Position numbers and translations under genes: made by a program. Under the pieces are notes generated by a model that had not been told where the DNA came from, searched no databases, and saw nothing but the letters and a program-made list of their open reading frames with translations. A stretch of DNA of 6,892 nucleotides, from contig PAUH01000016.1 in assembly GCA_002712645.1 (NCBI GenBank), positions 3,618 to 10,509 on the forward strand, given 5' to 3'. Shown here one piece after another: positions 1-6,057 of the stretch (its first letter is position 1; each line of letters begins with the position of its first letter). The stretch comes from Methanobacteriota archaeon. Lineage in GTDB: Archaea > Thermoplasmatota > Poseidoniia > Poseidoniales > Thalassarchaeaceae.

Positions 1-1377
<1,377 letters not shown>

Positions 1378-1380
1378 ATA

Positions 1381-2022
1381 ATGAGAGAGTCACACTTTGA
1401 ATGTATTCTTTGGGATTTTGGTGGGGTATTTACAGGCTCCCCCTTCTACTCAATTGACATCTACTCTGCCCGTTTAGGAGTAAAATCTCAAGAGCTCATT
1501 GAATTGGTTTTGGGTTATGGTTTAGTTGATGGTGATCACCATTGGCACCGGCTTGAACGAGGCGAGATAACAATGGTAGAAGCTCTTGAAGAAATAGAGA
1601 TTTTGACTAGCGCTAGAGGAATTGAAGGTTTCGAGATCAGAGATTTCTTCAAGTCAATGGGAGGCAAAAGCGATACAACTGAAGAAATGTTTGATGCTGT
1701 TCGCAGATACAAAGATTTAGGGATTAACCAATTTATTCTTTCAAATAATATTTTTGAATTCAGCTCATCATGGAAATCCATGCTGCCAGAGAATGTATTT
1801 GACGGCATTATTGACAGTTCAGAAGTTGGGATACGAAAGCCTGACCCAAAGATATTCACCTTGGCACTGCAAATTGCTGACAATTCTGCAGATAAGACAA
1901 TATTTCTTGATGACTATTTAGAACACGTTCATGTGGCCGAAGAATTAGGAATCAAGAGTATACACGTTGGTCCTAACCCCTTAGAGGCAGTCAAGCAACT
2001 TGATAAATTGTTAGCATCCTAA
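1381..2022 (+). CDS. HAD-superfamily (subfamily IA-like) hydrolase, probable phosphatase
   Basis: The product is a 213-residue soluble protein with all four HAD motifs. Motif I is WDFGGVF (Asp12 the expected nucleophile), motif II ILSNN (Ser121), motif III the RKPDPKIF lysine (Lys153), and motif IV FLDDYLEHV (Asp177/Asp178). Residues 20-100 between motifs I and II form a helical cap. The second Asp of the usual DxD is Gly14, as in the DFGGV/DLGNV branch that includes YihX-type sugar-phosphate phosphatases; members of that branch can be active, so this alone does not mean a dead enzyme. The substrate cannot be told from sequence. The ATG at 1381 lies 3 nt after the ligA stop, with a Shine-Dalgarno-like AGGGGA at 1362-1367 (spacer 13 nt, rather long), so translation probably depends on ribosomes arriving from ligA. 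The gene ends 6 nt before the end of the convergent minus-strand gene. Family is confident; specific function is unknown. Confidence 0.9.
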   Translation: MRESHFECILWDFGGVFTGSPFYSIDIYSARLGVKSQELIELVLGYGLVDGDHHWHRLERGEITMVEALEEIEILTSARGIEGFEIRDFFKSMGGKSDTTEEMFDAVRRYKDLGINQFILSNNIFEFSSSWKSMLPENVFDGIIDSSEVGIRKPDPKIFTLALQIADNSADKTIFLDDYLEHVHVAEELGIKSIHVGPNPLEAVKQLDKLLAS

Positions 2023-2028
2023 ATTTAG

Positions 2029-2511
2029 CTATAGTGCAGTAAAGCACCATTCAATTGTTGACCTAGCAGTCGCATCTGAAAGAGGCCAGTAAACTGCAAC
2101 GACGCAGTTTCTATCTCCCTGCAATTCCGGCACTGCCCTGCCTTCAAGAGGTTGGTACAGGAACCGGTTTAATGTAGACCCAAACGTTCCACTAGTTTGA
2201 GCGCTTTCTCTGGGATTCTCCAAGTCTCGCAACACATTTATTTGATCAGGAGGAATAGCAATGCCATTGATGGTTAGCTCTGCCTCGTAGCCAGCAATTA
2301 AGTCAATGCCGATTGATGTCTGTCTGAGTACCTCTGCATCCGGCTCGGGGAACAATGCCTCTATTACTGGGTTGCCTTCTACACGAATATCCGTACTTCC
2401 ACTGTTTGACAACGCAAAACCTAAAATAACACCCGTGATTCCAACTGTGACCAATGCCGGACCAAGAATCCTTGAGAACAAACTGCGTTGTGGCTCCACT
2501 TTTTCTGCCAT
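2029..2511 (-). CDS. Small membrane-anchored protein with exported beta-rich domain, function unknown
   Basis: I do not recognise this family. With the ATG at 2511 it is 160 residues: a short cytoplasmic head (MAEKVEPQRS), one hydrophobic helix at about 14-34 (ILGPALVTVGITGVILGFAL), then an exported domain. The Arg-rich head suggests N-in, C-out topology. The exported part alternates short hydrophobic strands (SIGIDLIAGYEAELTING, NCVVAVYWPL, TIEWCFTAL) with polar turns and a PEPDAEVL opening, reminiscent of Ig-like sandwiches. Cys136 and Cys156 in the last strands could form a disulfide. The frame also opens at a TTG at 2547, directly after a stop codon, but that TTG overlaps a good -10 box, so I prefer the ATG (12 residues shorter). 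No strong Shine-Dalgarno is seen. It is divergent from the PASTA protein gene and convergent with the HAD gene. It is probably real because of its coherent topology, own promoter and sensible composition. A lipoprotein is excluded: no lipobox Cys. Confidence 0.75.
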   Translation of the reverse strand: MAEKVEPQRSLFSRILGPALVTVGITGVILGFALSNSGSTDIRVEGNPVIEALFPEPDAEVLRQTSIGIDLIAGYEAELTINGIAIPPDQINVLRDLENPRESAQTSGTFGSTLNRFLYQPLEGRAVPELQGDRNCVVAVYWPLSDATARSTIEWCFTAL

Positions 2512-2592: not shown

Positions 2593-4236
2593 GTGGAATC
2601 ATCGACGTATTTGCATGCCGGAAAAGTTATTAATAACCGTTACCGACTCATAACTCCATTTGGAAGTGGAACTCTGGCGCAGATATACCTTGCCGATGAT
2701 ATGCGTGTAAGGAAGCAAGTGATTGTTAAGGTATTCGATGGTGCGAAGCTCAGTGGGGAAGACTTTCAGAAAAATTTCCAGGCTAGCCTCCAAGGTCTTG
2801 CACAAACGAGCCACCCAAACCTAATCAAAATTCTAGATTGGGGTTCAGGTGAGACCCCTTATATCGTTACTGAATTTTTCGCAGGTGGAGACCTCAGAGC
2901 AATGCTGCAACGAGACTCATCCCTTTCCGTTGCGCAAATAACATTTATTCTTATGGAGATACTGAAGGGAACCAGTTATCTCCATAAGAGAGGAAAAGTT
3001 CACGGTGGCCTGAAACCGGAAAACGTCATATTCAATCTAACCGGCGACCTAAAGATATCTGATACCGGTATGCGAAATATAAGTTCATTACATTCCTCAT
3101 CTGAATTTTTTACAGCAGGACCCTATTTATCTCCGGAATTAATTAGCGGTGAGCCGCTTACTCCTGCTGATGATGTCTATGCCATTGCAGCAATCGCCAA
3201 AGAATTATTAGATACAAAGCTTCCAGAAAGTGAAAGCACTGGCGAAGCACAAGAAAAAAATTCAGAAACTTTACAGCAATTAAAGACCGCATTTACAAGC
3301 GTAATATCATTAAGAGCGTCTGAAAGACCCTCCGCTAGTTCATTATTAGGGATTGTGAGTGAGTTAAATATCAGAAATGCGAAACCTGCATTACTTCCTG
3401 TTCAGAGCAGTTTAAATCTAAATCTTTTTGAGACATTCCATGGCGAGGAAGAACTCATTGATATCGACAGAAAACCAAACCTTAAAGATCGTTTTAGTAA
3501 AGCGATCTTATACCTAAAGTCTCATCTCAGACGGTGGCTATGGCTGCTCATAATGAGTATTCTAGTTGCCGGCACAGCACTCTTAATTAATTCTGGAAAT
3601 GAAGAAGAAGAAATCAGGCTTCAGGCGGTACCAGAAGTTGTCGGATTGCAAACTACTGATCTTGTTAACCAGTTTGGTAACTACTGGGCTCTCGAAGAAG
3701 CCTTGACTAGGGAAGACGGAACGCAGAACGGGCAAATTCTAAGGACCATACCTGCTGCAGGTGTGGAACTAGCGCAAGGAGAAGTTCTTACTTATTTTGT
3801 TTCACTTGGACCTGAACTTCGTACTATACCTCTAGGCCTAACTGGACTAACTATTGACGAAGCAGAATCGATACTCTTAGAGTCCCGGTTAAGACTTGGA
3901 GAGACTTCAGAGGTGCCTGATGAGGTGATACCAATTGGCTTGGTTATCGGACCTACAACTTCAGTAACAGAGTTACCCACCGGATCAGAAGTAGATATTC
4001 AAATTAGTGCTGGCCCAGAACTTCGGACAGTTCCTGAAGCTCTCGTAGGGAGAGCATATGAGCCAGTTGAGACAGCGATTGTGCTTGAAGGTCTTCAAGT
4101 AAAAAGGACAGAAGTATTCCACCCAGCTATAGGACCCGGAGTAGTTATCAGACTGGAACCCGCATCTGGTTCTAAGGTGCTTCCTGATGGAGTCATAGAA
4201 ATTTTTGTATCAAAGGGCCCACAGACTGTTGAATAG
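2593..4236 (+). CDS. Membrane PASTA-repeat Ser/Thr pseudokinase (PknB-like architecture)
   Basis: The 547-residue protein has a PknB/PrkC layout. A kinase-like domain spans about 15-260, a basic juxtamembrane linker about 292-313, one transmembrane helix about 314-332 (RWLWLLIMSILVAGTALLI), an acidic stretch, then three extracellular PASTA repeats (about 345-407, 408-475, 476-543). PASTA domains of this family bind muropeptides or lipid II. The glycine-rich loop (FGSGTLAQIYLA), beta-3 Lys46, KPEN Lys141/Asn144, DTG Asp157, SPE Glu182 and Arg245 are kept. The alpha-C glutamate position is Ser65, and the catalytic HRD reads HGG (137-139), so the catalytic Asp is Gly139. The DFG Phe is Thr158. 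The activation segment is short. I therefore infer a pseudokinase that may bind nucleotide and scaffold or regulate envelope enzymes. The start is GTG at 2593; the frame is open upstream but offers no nearby standard start. The stop is TAG, 70 nt before gatC. Architecture is certain; inactivity is inferred. Confidence 0.93.
   Translation: MESSTYLHAGKVINNRYRLITPFGSGTLAQIYLADDMRVRKQVIVKVFDGAKLSGEDFQKNFQASLQGLAQTSHPNLIKILDWGSGETPYIVTEFFAGGDLRAMLQRDSSLSVAQITFILMEILKGTSYLHKRGKVHGGLKPENVIFNLTGDLKISDTGMRNISSLHSSSEFFTAGPYLSPELISGEPLTPADDVYAIAAIAKELLDTKLPESESTGEAQEKNSETLQQLKTAFTSVISLRASERPSASSLLGIVSELNIRNAKPALLPVQSSLNLNLFETFHGEEELIDIDRKPNLKDRFSKAILYLKSHLRRWLWLLIMSILVAGTALLINSGNEEEEIRLQAVPEVVGLQTTDLVNQFGNYWALEEALTREDGTQNGQILRTIPAAGVELAQGEVLTYFVSLGPELRTIPLGLTGLTIDEAESILLESRLRLGETSEVPDEVIPIGLVIGPTTSVTELPTGSEVDIQISAGPELRTVPEALVGRAYEPVETAIVLEGLQVKRTEVFHPAIGPGVVIRLEPASGSKVLPDGVIEIFVSKGPQTVE
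3625..4221 (+). repeat. Three tandem PASTA repeats within the pseudokinase gene
   Basis: These are protein-level repeats of about 63-68 residues, each ending in a (S/K)xGP-type motif: VSLGP, ISAGP, VSKGP. Repeats 1/2 and 2/3 are joined by near-identical linkers, GPELRTIP and GPELRTVP, also visible as related DNA near 3809 and 4012. Each has the PASTA pattern of an opening VP/IP, a helix rich in Glu/Ala, a mid-repeat IxxxxP, a GS/G-x-x-V/L turn and a final beta strand. Three repeats is within the usual range for PknB-like proteins. Confidence 0.85.
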
Positions 4237-4306: not shown

Positions 4307-4609
4307 ATGTCTGATTAAATATCTTCTGACGAAGTCAAACATGTTGCTAACCTTGCACGCTTACGTTTAACAAGCGAAGAGTTAGAAACCTTTACAGAGC
4401 AGTTGAGAGCAGTTCTAGACCATGCAAAAGATGTTGAAGCACTCGAGCTAGACGATATTGAACCTATGTCTCATCCGCTTCCGATCGAAAATACGATGCG
4501 AGAGGATACCCCTAATCCGATGCTAAGACCTTCTGACTTTCTATCCGAAGCACCAGCAGTAGAGGACGGAAAATTCCTTGTACCTAAAATTCTCGGTGAA
4601 GAAGCATGA
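4307..4609 (+). CDS. gatC: GatC subunit of tRNA amidotransferase, with an in-frame TAA at codon 4
   Basis: GatC is the small subunit that wraps around GatA and GatB and stabilises the amidotransferase. From ATG 4307 the frame reads M-S-D-stop, then continues ISSDEVKHVANLARL through a full GatC: first helix, the LELDDIEPMSHP segment, the MREDTPNP segment, and the C-terminal APAVEDGKFLVPKIL. The whole is 100 codons including the TAA (4316-4318), normal family length. Between the TAA and TTG 4403 the frame has no ATG, GTG or TTG. Starting at that TTG would give 68 residues and delete the N-terminal helix. Possible readings: a single-base error (AAA, CAA or GAA for TAA), a genuine nonsense mutation, or initiation at the ATA at 4319. 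The stop overlaps gatA by ATGA. Identity is certain; whether the gene is intact is not. Confidence 0.88.
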
Positions 4610-6057
4610 GTGGTGCGGTCCCTGCAAAGTACCAGAGCGCAAGTGAGATAGTCGATCTCGTTACTAATCGCGAGATTTCCGCAGTTGAAGTACTTGAACG
4701 GTATCTCAACCAGATCGAAGAGCATGAAGAGGATGTTCATGCTTTTAACTTGGTGACTATCAATGAAGCTAGAGCAGCAGCAAAAGAGACAGACAAGCTA
4801 ATTGTTCAAGGAGAAAAGCTAGGACCATTAGCCGGAGTCCCAGTAGCAATTAAAGACAACCTGTGTACGAAAGGAATACCTACTACTGCAAGTTCAAAGA
4901 TCCTTGAAGGTTGGAAACCACCCTATGACGCAACTGTTGTCAAGAAACTTAAAGAAGCAGGGGCGACAATAGTTGGTAAGACAAACTTAGATGAATTTGC
5001 TATGGGCAGTTCAACAGAAAATTCTGCCTTCGGGCCCACCCGAAACCCTCATGACCTTTCATGTGTCCCAGGAGGGTCAAGTGGTGGAAGTGCGGCAGCC
5101 GTGGCGGCAGGGTTTGCTCCTATCGCCATAGGTTCAGACACTGGAGGCTCAATACGCCAACCAGCAGCTCTTTGTGGAGTCGTTGGTGTAAAACCAACGT
5201 ATGGGGGGGTCTCACGTTATGGGCTCTTGGCATTCGCCAGCTCATTAGATCAAGTGGGGCCCTTTGCCACATCTGTCAGAGATGCGGCGATCGTTCATGA
5301 AGTAATCGGAGGTTATGATCCTCTAGATTCAACCAGCATCAAACAAGCCCCTAATTCTTTTGTGCAAATAATTGATGAAGGCGTCAACAAACTTAAAGTA
5401 GGTATCATCAGCGAACTGATGGGAGGAATAGATGGCATCACCCACGAAGTTATCGAACAAACAAATAAAGCCGTCTCTGCTTTGTCCAATGCGGGCGCAC
5501 AAGTTGAAGAAGTTTCTCTCCCTGCCGCTCTGTACTGCCTATCAGCGTATTACCTCATCGCACCAGCCGAAGCATCAAGCAACCTCAGTCGTTACGACGG
5601 AGTTCGCTACGGATTACGAGTTGACGGTGCCAACCTAAAAGAAATGAACGTGAACACGAGAACAGAAGGGTTTGGGGATGAAGTCAAACGAAGAATAATG
5701 CTTGGCACCTATGCCTTATCGGCAGGATACTATGACGCGTACTATGGGAAAGCATTAAAGGTACGAAGACTCCTAGCAGAGAATTTTGCTGATCTCTATA
5801 AAGACTATGACGTACTCCTTTCTCCCACTTCTCCCTGCACTGCCTTTAAGCTAGGGGCGAAAGTAAATGATCCAATGACAATGTATGTAAACGACGTTTG
5901 CACGATTCCTTCCAACCTTGTAGGTCATCCAGCTATCTCTATTCCGTTTGGTTCAGGCAAAGATGGTATGCCTATAGGGGTCCAAATACTTGCACCCCCA
6001 ATGAAGGAACCGGTGATGTATCAAGTAGCGCGGACCTTGGAACAGGCATCACAATGA
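4606..6057 (+). CDS. gatA: GatA, glutaminase/amidase subunit of Asp-tRNA(Asn)/Glu-tRNA(Gln) amidotransferase
   Basis: GatA hydrolyses glutamine and releases ammonia, which is channelled to GatB to amidate mischarged Glu-tRNA(Gln) or Asp-tRNA(Asn). The protein has 483 residues, the normal family length. The amidase-signature triad is intact: Lys83 in VPVAIKDN, cis-Ser158 in PGGSSGGS, and nucleophile Ser182 in [11 protein letters not shown], each 4 residues later than S. aureus K79/S154/S178. Other family blocks are [44 protein letters not shown] and the C-terminal [10 protein letters not shown] and [10 protein letters not shown]. The ATG overlaps the gatC stop (ATGA), with GGTGA at 4595-4599 as Shine-Dalgarno 6 nt upstream, so translation is coupled to gatC. 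The stop overlaps the gatB start in the same way. Seven G residues in a row at 5213-5219 are a possible sequencing trouble spot, but the frame is intact across them. Confidence 0.97.

Follow-up and report, generated by a model that had tools for sequence, protein, structure and literature searches.

A PASTA-repeat receptor with lost catalytic kinase residues and its likely role as a non-catalytic partner of PknB

In actinobacteria of one family with small genomes, the ligA-gatC locus encodes a PASTA receptor in which catalytic residues of the kinase domain have been lost. The protein is likely to be a non-catalytic co-receptor, which would pair with the motif-complete PknB of most of the relatives. 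In the sequences compared, the catalytic losses ran across a clade and took different forms, at one locus and in an open frame, and the kinase domain had diverged more than in intact orthologues while the PASTA part had not.

PASTA kinases are widespread cell-wall sensors of Gram-positive bacteria, in which the roles of the PASTA part and the kinase are hard to separate. In these genomes, evolution appears to have run the separation experiment: the kinase was relaxed, the sensor was not, and PknB is present in most of the same genomes. A catalysis-independent function of PASTA becomes directly testable.

Results

Domain architecture of the receptor

The window, i.e. the whole stretch of 6,892 nt that was analysed, contained the receptor gene and its neighbours (Table 1). 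The preliminary description had placed the receptor kinase at 2593-3372. The kinase-like half indeed lies there, but the gene extends to 4236.

Table 1. Features of the window
Feature	Position	Strand	Basis
ligA, 3' part	1..1377	+	Pfam; conserved neighbour
HAD hydrolase	1381..2022	+	Pfam; neighbour in 27/110 loci
Divergent membrane-anchored protein, 160 aa from ATG, predicted exported beta domain	2029..2511	-	Conserved neighbour
Putative PASTA-repeat receptor pseudokinase gene	2593..4236	+	ORF, GTG start, 547 aa; Pfam; orthologues
Degenerate protein-kinase domain, residues 9-256	2617..3360	+	Pfam; AlphaFold2 model; Foldseek match to PknA/PknB
Beta-3 Lys46, AAG	2728..2730	+	Kept in window protein; Arg in 7/29 clade rows
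Alpha-C position, Ser65 for Glu, AGC	2785..2787	+	Codon reading; alignment
HGG for HRD, CAC GGT GGC	3001..3009	+	Codon reading; alignment
Gly139 in place of catalytic Asp	3007..3009	+	Codon reading; alignment
Catalytic-loop Asn144, AAC	3022..3024	+	Kept in window protein; Lys in 7/29 clade rows
DTG for DFG, GAT ACC GGT (Asp157 present)	3061..3069	+	Codon reading
Activation segment, residues 157-182, 26 aa; GTxR before APE motif absent	3061..3138	+	Row alignment
Predicted membrane helix, residues 297-332	3481..3588	+	AlphaFold2 model; clade conservation
PASTA-like repeat 1, residues about 345-411	3625..3825	+	Model strands (boundaries by eye); no Pfam match
PASTA repeat 2, residues about 412-479	3826..4029	+	21 bits, below Pfam cut-off; model
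PASTA repeat 3, residues about 480-545	4030..4227	+	Above Pfam cut-off; model
gatA (Pfam Amidase)	4606..6057	+	Conserved neighbour; gatC between gatA and receptor

The gene product has the order kinase domain, transmembrane helix, PASTA. Pfam matched the 547-aa protein to Pkinase (E 2.4e-32) and PASTA (E 8.2e-12). In the AlphaFold2 model (mean pLDDT 81; pTM 0.49), a kinase fold with two lobes was followed by a helix at residues 297-332 and by three PASTA-like domains, with ten-residue means of 81 to 95 across the PASTA part. Foldseek searches with this model matched PknA/PknB and the S. aureus PrkC ectodomain (3py9), and the PknB L33D and D76A structures were also among the matches. Four residues of the predicted membrane helix (R314, W315, W317 and L318) were invariant across the 29 rows of the clade described below. 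We interpreted the protein to be composed of a folded, two-lobed kinase-like domain, a single membrane helix and three PASTA domains, as the model predicted; the PASTA repeats would then lie outside the cell.

The score of the receptor against the NCBIfam PASTA-kinase model NF033483 (203 bits) was below the 450-bit cut-off.

Catalytic residues of the window protein

The window protein was aligned to the solved StkP, and a profile of it and its relatives was aligned to PknB. These alignments identified the window residues at HRD, the alpha-C Glu, DFG, the beta-3 Lys and the catalytic-loop Asn. Together with the codons, they bore out the earlier reading of HGG at HRD, Ser65 at the alpha-C Glu and DTG at DFG. 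The codons likewise confirmed that Lys46, Asn144 and Asp157 are retained.

A PASTA receptor kinase is recognized by the catalytic Lys, the HRD Asp and the DFG Asp together; here, Gly139 replaces the HRD Asp. In the accessible part of a review, a bacterial Ser/Thr pseudokinase is defined by the absence of one or more of the beta-3 Lys, HRD Asp and DFG Asp (PMC12599244). With its HRD Asp missing, the window protein would be classed as a pseudokinase on motif grounds. Nucleotide binding may persist in the branch of the window, because K46, N144 and D157 are kept there.

The change had been proposed to be a genuine loss, and the relatives agreed. The 15 nearest proteins (P0002-P0016, 71-85% identical) also lacked the Asp, with HGG or HGS in its place. 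Since the same loss recurs in relatives on many contigs, sequencing error was rejected.

Source of the contig

The nearest named records to the receptor, at 84 and 83% identity, were from MAGs that carry the label Candidatus Microthrix sp., a name that led to a strain in Acidimicrobiia, Actinomycetota. Among 60 genomes, namely the window's own assembly and 59 relatives, a homologue at E 0.001 was found only in the former; all 59 relatives were without a match.

The bin that holds the window contained two RNA_pol_N genes; among 14 control genomes, this family was matched in four, each of them archaeal. A small 221-aa protein in the bin was read as Bud32, which is our own label. A search for ribosomal S11 added nothing further. 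The listed contamination of the bin is 6.34%. The bin (G000) is archaeal, and the 21-kb contig that carries the window (C23) is most likely a mis-binned actinobacterial piece.

The kinome that belongs with the window cannot be read from an archaeal bin, and it is therefore meaningless that no other PASTA proteins occur in it. Use of the bin in the search for a second PASTA kinase was rejected, because its 59 relatives gave no match and because of the two RNA_pol_N genes. Genome-level statements that join this bin and the window are unsafe.

Orthologues at the ligA-gatC locus

The family of the closest MAG was represented by 20 genomes, 18 small (1.2-2.1 Mb) and two large (3.9-4.2 Mb). The orthologue was present in 18 of them (16 small and both large), and its motifs were intact in the large ones. 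The locus was not found in the remaining two small genomes. This absence is uninformative, because the contig of one genome (G067) begins within gatA and the other genome (G075) yielded no gatA.

The search was extended to 198 genomes of the order; 98 of them had a match at E 1e-33 and were taken further, and the other 100 had none. In all, 112 loci were read (family, window and order), and ligA, the transmembrane protein or gatC stood beside the receptor in 110. The other two (L170 and L175) had no syntenic neighbour and were dropped from the synteny counts. On the fetched stretches of the 110 loci, ligA was found in 97, the transmembrane protein in 93, gatC in 58 and HAD in 27.

Within reach of the contigs, the gene order in the family was mnmA, a membrane protein, ligA, HAD, the divergent transmembrane protein, the kinase, gatC, gatA and gatB. 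The ligA, HAD and gatA labels were based on Pfam, and those of mnmA, gatB and gatC were our own. There was no HAD match at the locus of the two large family genomes.

The divergently encoded protein at 2029-2511 gave no Pfam match. It has one predicted transmembrane helix and a strikingly conserved exported domain with two invariant Cys, and its homologues were on the strand opposite to the kinase in the loci read. It is a possible partner of the receptor. Its model had a mean pLDDT of 72 and weak CopC/Ig-like matches, and was not used to assign an identity by fold.

In the gatC frame of the window (4307-4609), the fourth codon (4316-4318) is a TAA stop, by consensus error or in reality. In the relatives, gatC is open, with about 100-109 aa.

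Pattern of catalytic loss

Five core residues were scored in the orthologues: K46, E65, D139, N144 and D157 (window numbering). All 16 small-genome loci of the family had lost at least one of them, and 15 had lost the catalytic Asp, which was replaced by G, S, C, E, A or M. Lys was changed to Arg in six of these loci, Asn to Lys in three, and the DFG Asp to Glu or Gly in four. On the other hand, all five residues were kept in both large-genome members, which have QRD, and in 85 of the 91 syntenic order loci outside the family. In the other six, either the Asp had been lost separately (L114, HRG; L119, HSG) or the alpha-C Glu alone had been lost (L112, L113, L116 and L118).

The last four belong to one branch of the order. 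They have Ala for the Glu, HGD or HRD, and RPSN or RPTN loops at the same locus, and their kinase identity exceeded their PASTA identity by only 0.01-0.11. This branch may represent the same change at an earlier stage.

A tree of 84 rows was built with the trait columns removed. From the initial set of 89 rows, a wrong-frame outgroup row and P0035, P0066, L114 and L119 were left out; the tree and conservation sets took every second intact order locus plus chosen loci. The degenerate rows formed one clade of 29 with support of 100/100, nested among intact relatives. This clade and the two QRD genomes grouped together at 100/98.

Orthologues with HGD or HRD had been named as part of a result that would speak against a genuine loss. 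Outside the clade such orthologues exist; inside it, the Asp was found only in P0018 (HGD) and in G064/P0021 (RYD). These rows set the minimum number of Asp changes in the tree at three, and if Asp was never regained, more than three losses are needed.

G064/P0021 kept the Asp, but had Lys for Asn and Arg for Glu. The main exception was P0018 (57% identical), which kept all five core residues inside the clade; catalysis may therefore survive there or have returned, as far as the residues tell. P0018 was without T170, G174, T175 and R177 of the activation segment, all of which were present in the 47 intact rows (a set that leaves out L112, L113, L114, L116, L118 and L119). The segment from DFG to APE was 20-28 residues long in all 29 clade rows, P0018 included, compared with at least 30 in all 47 intact rows.

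The frame was open in all 16 small-genome loci and in the window. The inner domain of the clade had 243-259 residues in every row, against a median of 261, and 38 of the 88 positions conserved in intact orthologues were retained. The alignment of same-lineage orthologues thus extended the loss in the window protein to the lineage, and it favours the initial reading as a PASTA pseudokinase as far as sequence can.

Conservation shift and rates of change

Kinase identity was higher than PASTA identity in all 1035 intact pairs computed, and in only 14 of 406 clade pairs. (A further 46 of the 1081 intact pairs were uncomputed, L152 having no PASTA columns.) Among chosen pairs of near relatives, PASTA identity was the higher in nine of nine clade pairs and in none of 11 intact pairs.

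Distances were also scaled to ligA, using the locus rows only (P rows left out). The median ratio of kinase to ligA distance was 1.0-1.1 in the intact bins of 50-90% ligA identity and 2.7-3.3 in the clade, versus 2.0-3.2 and 1.8-2.7, respectively, for PASTA to ligA. The intact bin above 90% ligA identity (two pairs) gave 0.61 for the kinase and 1.06 for PASTA. Relative to ligA, the kinase domain of the clade was about 2.7-fold more diverged than that of intact orthologues and the PASTA part was not, in a comparison that is descriptive only because the pairs are not independent. As a control, 66 pairs of 12 of the 13 PknB-bearing genomes gave kinase/ligA ratios of 0.53 for PknB and 2.79 for the pseudokinase, with 65 of the pairs in the same direction; the kinase domain of PknB was not accelerated.

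Pairwise dN/dS of the kinase domain was computed for six pairs: five gave 0.14-0.30, and one (G066/G070) gave 0.78 on a dS of 0.01. Elsewhere, it was 0.08-0.29 for PASTA, 0.04-0.10 for gatA and ligA, and 0.07-0.16 for pknB. The inner domain is thus less constrained than its neighbours, but not free. PASTA (0.26-0.29) was no lower than the kinase (0.22-0.30) in the three pairs closest to the window. At 72-98.5% kinase identity, the median dN/dS was alike in clade and intact pairs (0.240 in seven and 0.256 in 458, from overlapping pairs with doubtful dS). These medians, with no clear difference between them, stand against the conservation shift.

PknB in the same genomes

The preliminary description had called for a search for a second, catalytically complete PASTA kinase, and a motif-complete one was found in the form of PknB. 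It has HRD, Lys, Glu, Asn and DFG. Of the 16 small family genomes with the orthologue, 13 also carry this PknB, as does G062; the PknB of G063 has HCD. A search at E 1e-60 did not find PknB in G069, G071 and G076, perhaps through incomplete bins. The pknB frame of G070 contained one in-frame TGA.

In G077, PknB sits among FhaA, FtsW/RodA and transpeptidase genes (Pfam). In the four other loci where PknB was read as an ORF, at least two of the same gene clusters adjoin it.

Discussion

Proposed function

We propose that the PASTA part would bind fragments of peptidoglycan or lipid II, as known PASTA kinases do. The inner domain would contact PknB through the back-to-back face of its N-lobe, since it retains the counterparts of PknB Arg10 and Asp76. 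R16 is present in 29 of 29 clade rows and D82 in 26 of 29, and they align to PknB R10 and D76, residues of its back-to-back contact. These residues point only weakly to pairing with PknB, because both are conserved in intact orthologues too and V39, at the position of PknB L33, varies in the clade. The receptor would then signal by the pairing itself or by competition for ligand, with no transfer of phosphate.

According to two papers, activation of PknB-type kinases probably follows the binding of fragments to PASTA and dimerization of the kinase, and both back-to-back and front-to-front dimers are described (PMC6428115, PMC6333020). For MviN, the accessible part of the review describes a back-to-back dimer and gives L750 and D793 as the equivalent residues (PMC12599244).

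We tentatively suggest, at slightly less than even odds, that these proteins make up a new family of PASTA pseudokinases: in a genome-reduced actinobacterial lineage, the ancestral sensor kinase at ligA-gatC would have become an enzyme-less sensor that controls PknB by pairing or by competition for fragments, with separate losses of the Asp at this locus in two or more further lineages of the order. If this is true, the PASTA architecture joins the short list of bacterial pseudokinase families.

Alternative explanations

The main rival to a co-receptor of PknB is an extracellular PASTA anchor or decoy, which would bind wall fragments outside and make no contact with PknB, its inner domain being a folded leftover for stability or anchoring. 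The faster divergence of the kinase (and not of PASTA) relative to intact orthologues would suit such a protein, as would the invariant residues at the membrane edge and the differences in nucleotide-site residues between subclades. The inner domain is, however, nearly full length in all 29 rows, with dN/dS below 1 and with retention of the 38 intact-conserved positions, and we regard the decoy as rather unlikely. Decay of the gene would go further: genome reduction would be removing a redundant kinase, and the clade would present stages of pseudogene formation. This seems quite improbable. The genomes are small (1.2-2.1 Mb) and the kinase domain is relaxed about 2.7-fold against ligA, but all 16 loci and the window have an open frame, PASTA divergence is not raised, five of the six pairs have a dN/dS far below 1, and 18 of the 20 family genomes carry the gene, the remaining two offering no usable locus.

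It is very improbable that the protein is an enzyme by an atypical route, with another base in place of the Asp or with another kind of transfer, AMPylation for example. The review gives cases of pseudokinases with other chemistry (PMC12599244), and K46, N144 and D157 in the window's branch, and all five residues in P0018, are kept. The core residues lost, on the other hand, vary between subclades (Lys to Arg and the DFG Asp to Gly or Glu are among the changes), so that no single alternative site is kept. An artefact of sequencing or binning has hardly any claim to belief. The bin of the contig is indeed archaeal and is listed as 6.34% contaminated, but the same kind of loss occurs in many separate contigs and bins, and mis-binning changes the filing of a contig, not its gene.

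Relation to known kinases and pseudokinases

The receptor shares a kinase domain, one transmembrane helix and PASTA repeats with the PASTA receptor kinases PknB, PrkC, StkP and Stk1, and its nearest solved sequences are StkP and PknB. It differs from them in its missing catalytic residues and in its NCBIfam score. Its locus is ligA-gatC, not the FhaA-FtsW-PbpA-PknB cluster read in these genomes.

The role proposed here is like that of the animal and plant receptor pseudokinases HER3 and CORYNE, in which a sensing ectodomain or co-receptor is joined to a non-catalytic inner domain that works via an active partner. Neither is known to be related to the receptor beyond the kinase fold.

The DYD pseudokinases combine a beta-3 Lys-to-Arg change with DYD; the window protein keeps the Lys and has DTG, and the Arg subclade of the clade has DFG, DLG or GFG. 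The ActPs1, ActPs2, GLW, CP1 and DLHK pseudokinases are set apart by sequence constraints of their own. The accessible part of the review, from 2025, lists seven bacterial pseudokinase families, which like the receptor have a kinase fold without the full motifs and of which several are membrane-associated (PMC12599244). That part describes no PASTA-repeat pseudokinase, and PASTA appears in it once, in the reference list.

A parallel may be drawn with MviN (ActPs3), which in the same source is an actinobacterial membrane pseudokinase of a cell that also has PknB and FhaA (PMC12599244). There, MviN is said to have lost all motifs, with a hallmark deletion in the activation loop, and to have a carbohydrate-binding domain as its outer part; the receptor keeps K46, N144 and D157, and its outer part is PASTA. 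Motif degradation in the receptor is thus incomplete, unlike that of ActPs3. Its DFG-APE segment has 26 residues, compared with 30-31 in 46 of 47 intact orthologues.

In the open-licence literature, none of the titles listed describes a PASTA pseudokinase, and no paper was found that mentions both a pseudokinase and an Acidimicrob- name. The pseudokinase SpkE is named, without PASTA, in the accessible part of PMC12189002. Bacterial pseudokinases as such are known; as far as these searches of open-licence papers reach, the PASTA architecture and the conservation shift seem new.

A second accessory kinase

A separate accessory pseudokinase-like gene is also present in these genomes. Its product is a kinase of about 530 aa, with odd motifs in the five small genomes read (L015, L047, L048, L051 and L052; L213 and L214; contexts L223-L229). 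The motifs were HGDLNPEN in three of these, and HGNLNPNN and HGSLDPKR in the others. SGFG replaced DFG in four of the five, and G075 kept DFG. The copies in G062 and G063 had intact HRD and DFG and part of the same neighbours. The accessory kinase is perhaps undergoing a parallel loss of catalysis, with PknB remaining intact. In G060, the accessory kinase gene lies ahead of an ECF sigma factor gene and near a thioredoxin-reductase-like gene, an arrangement that recalls the mviN-sigM locus.
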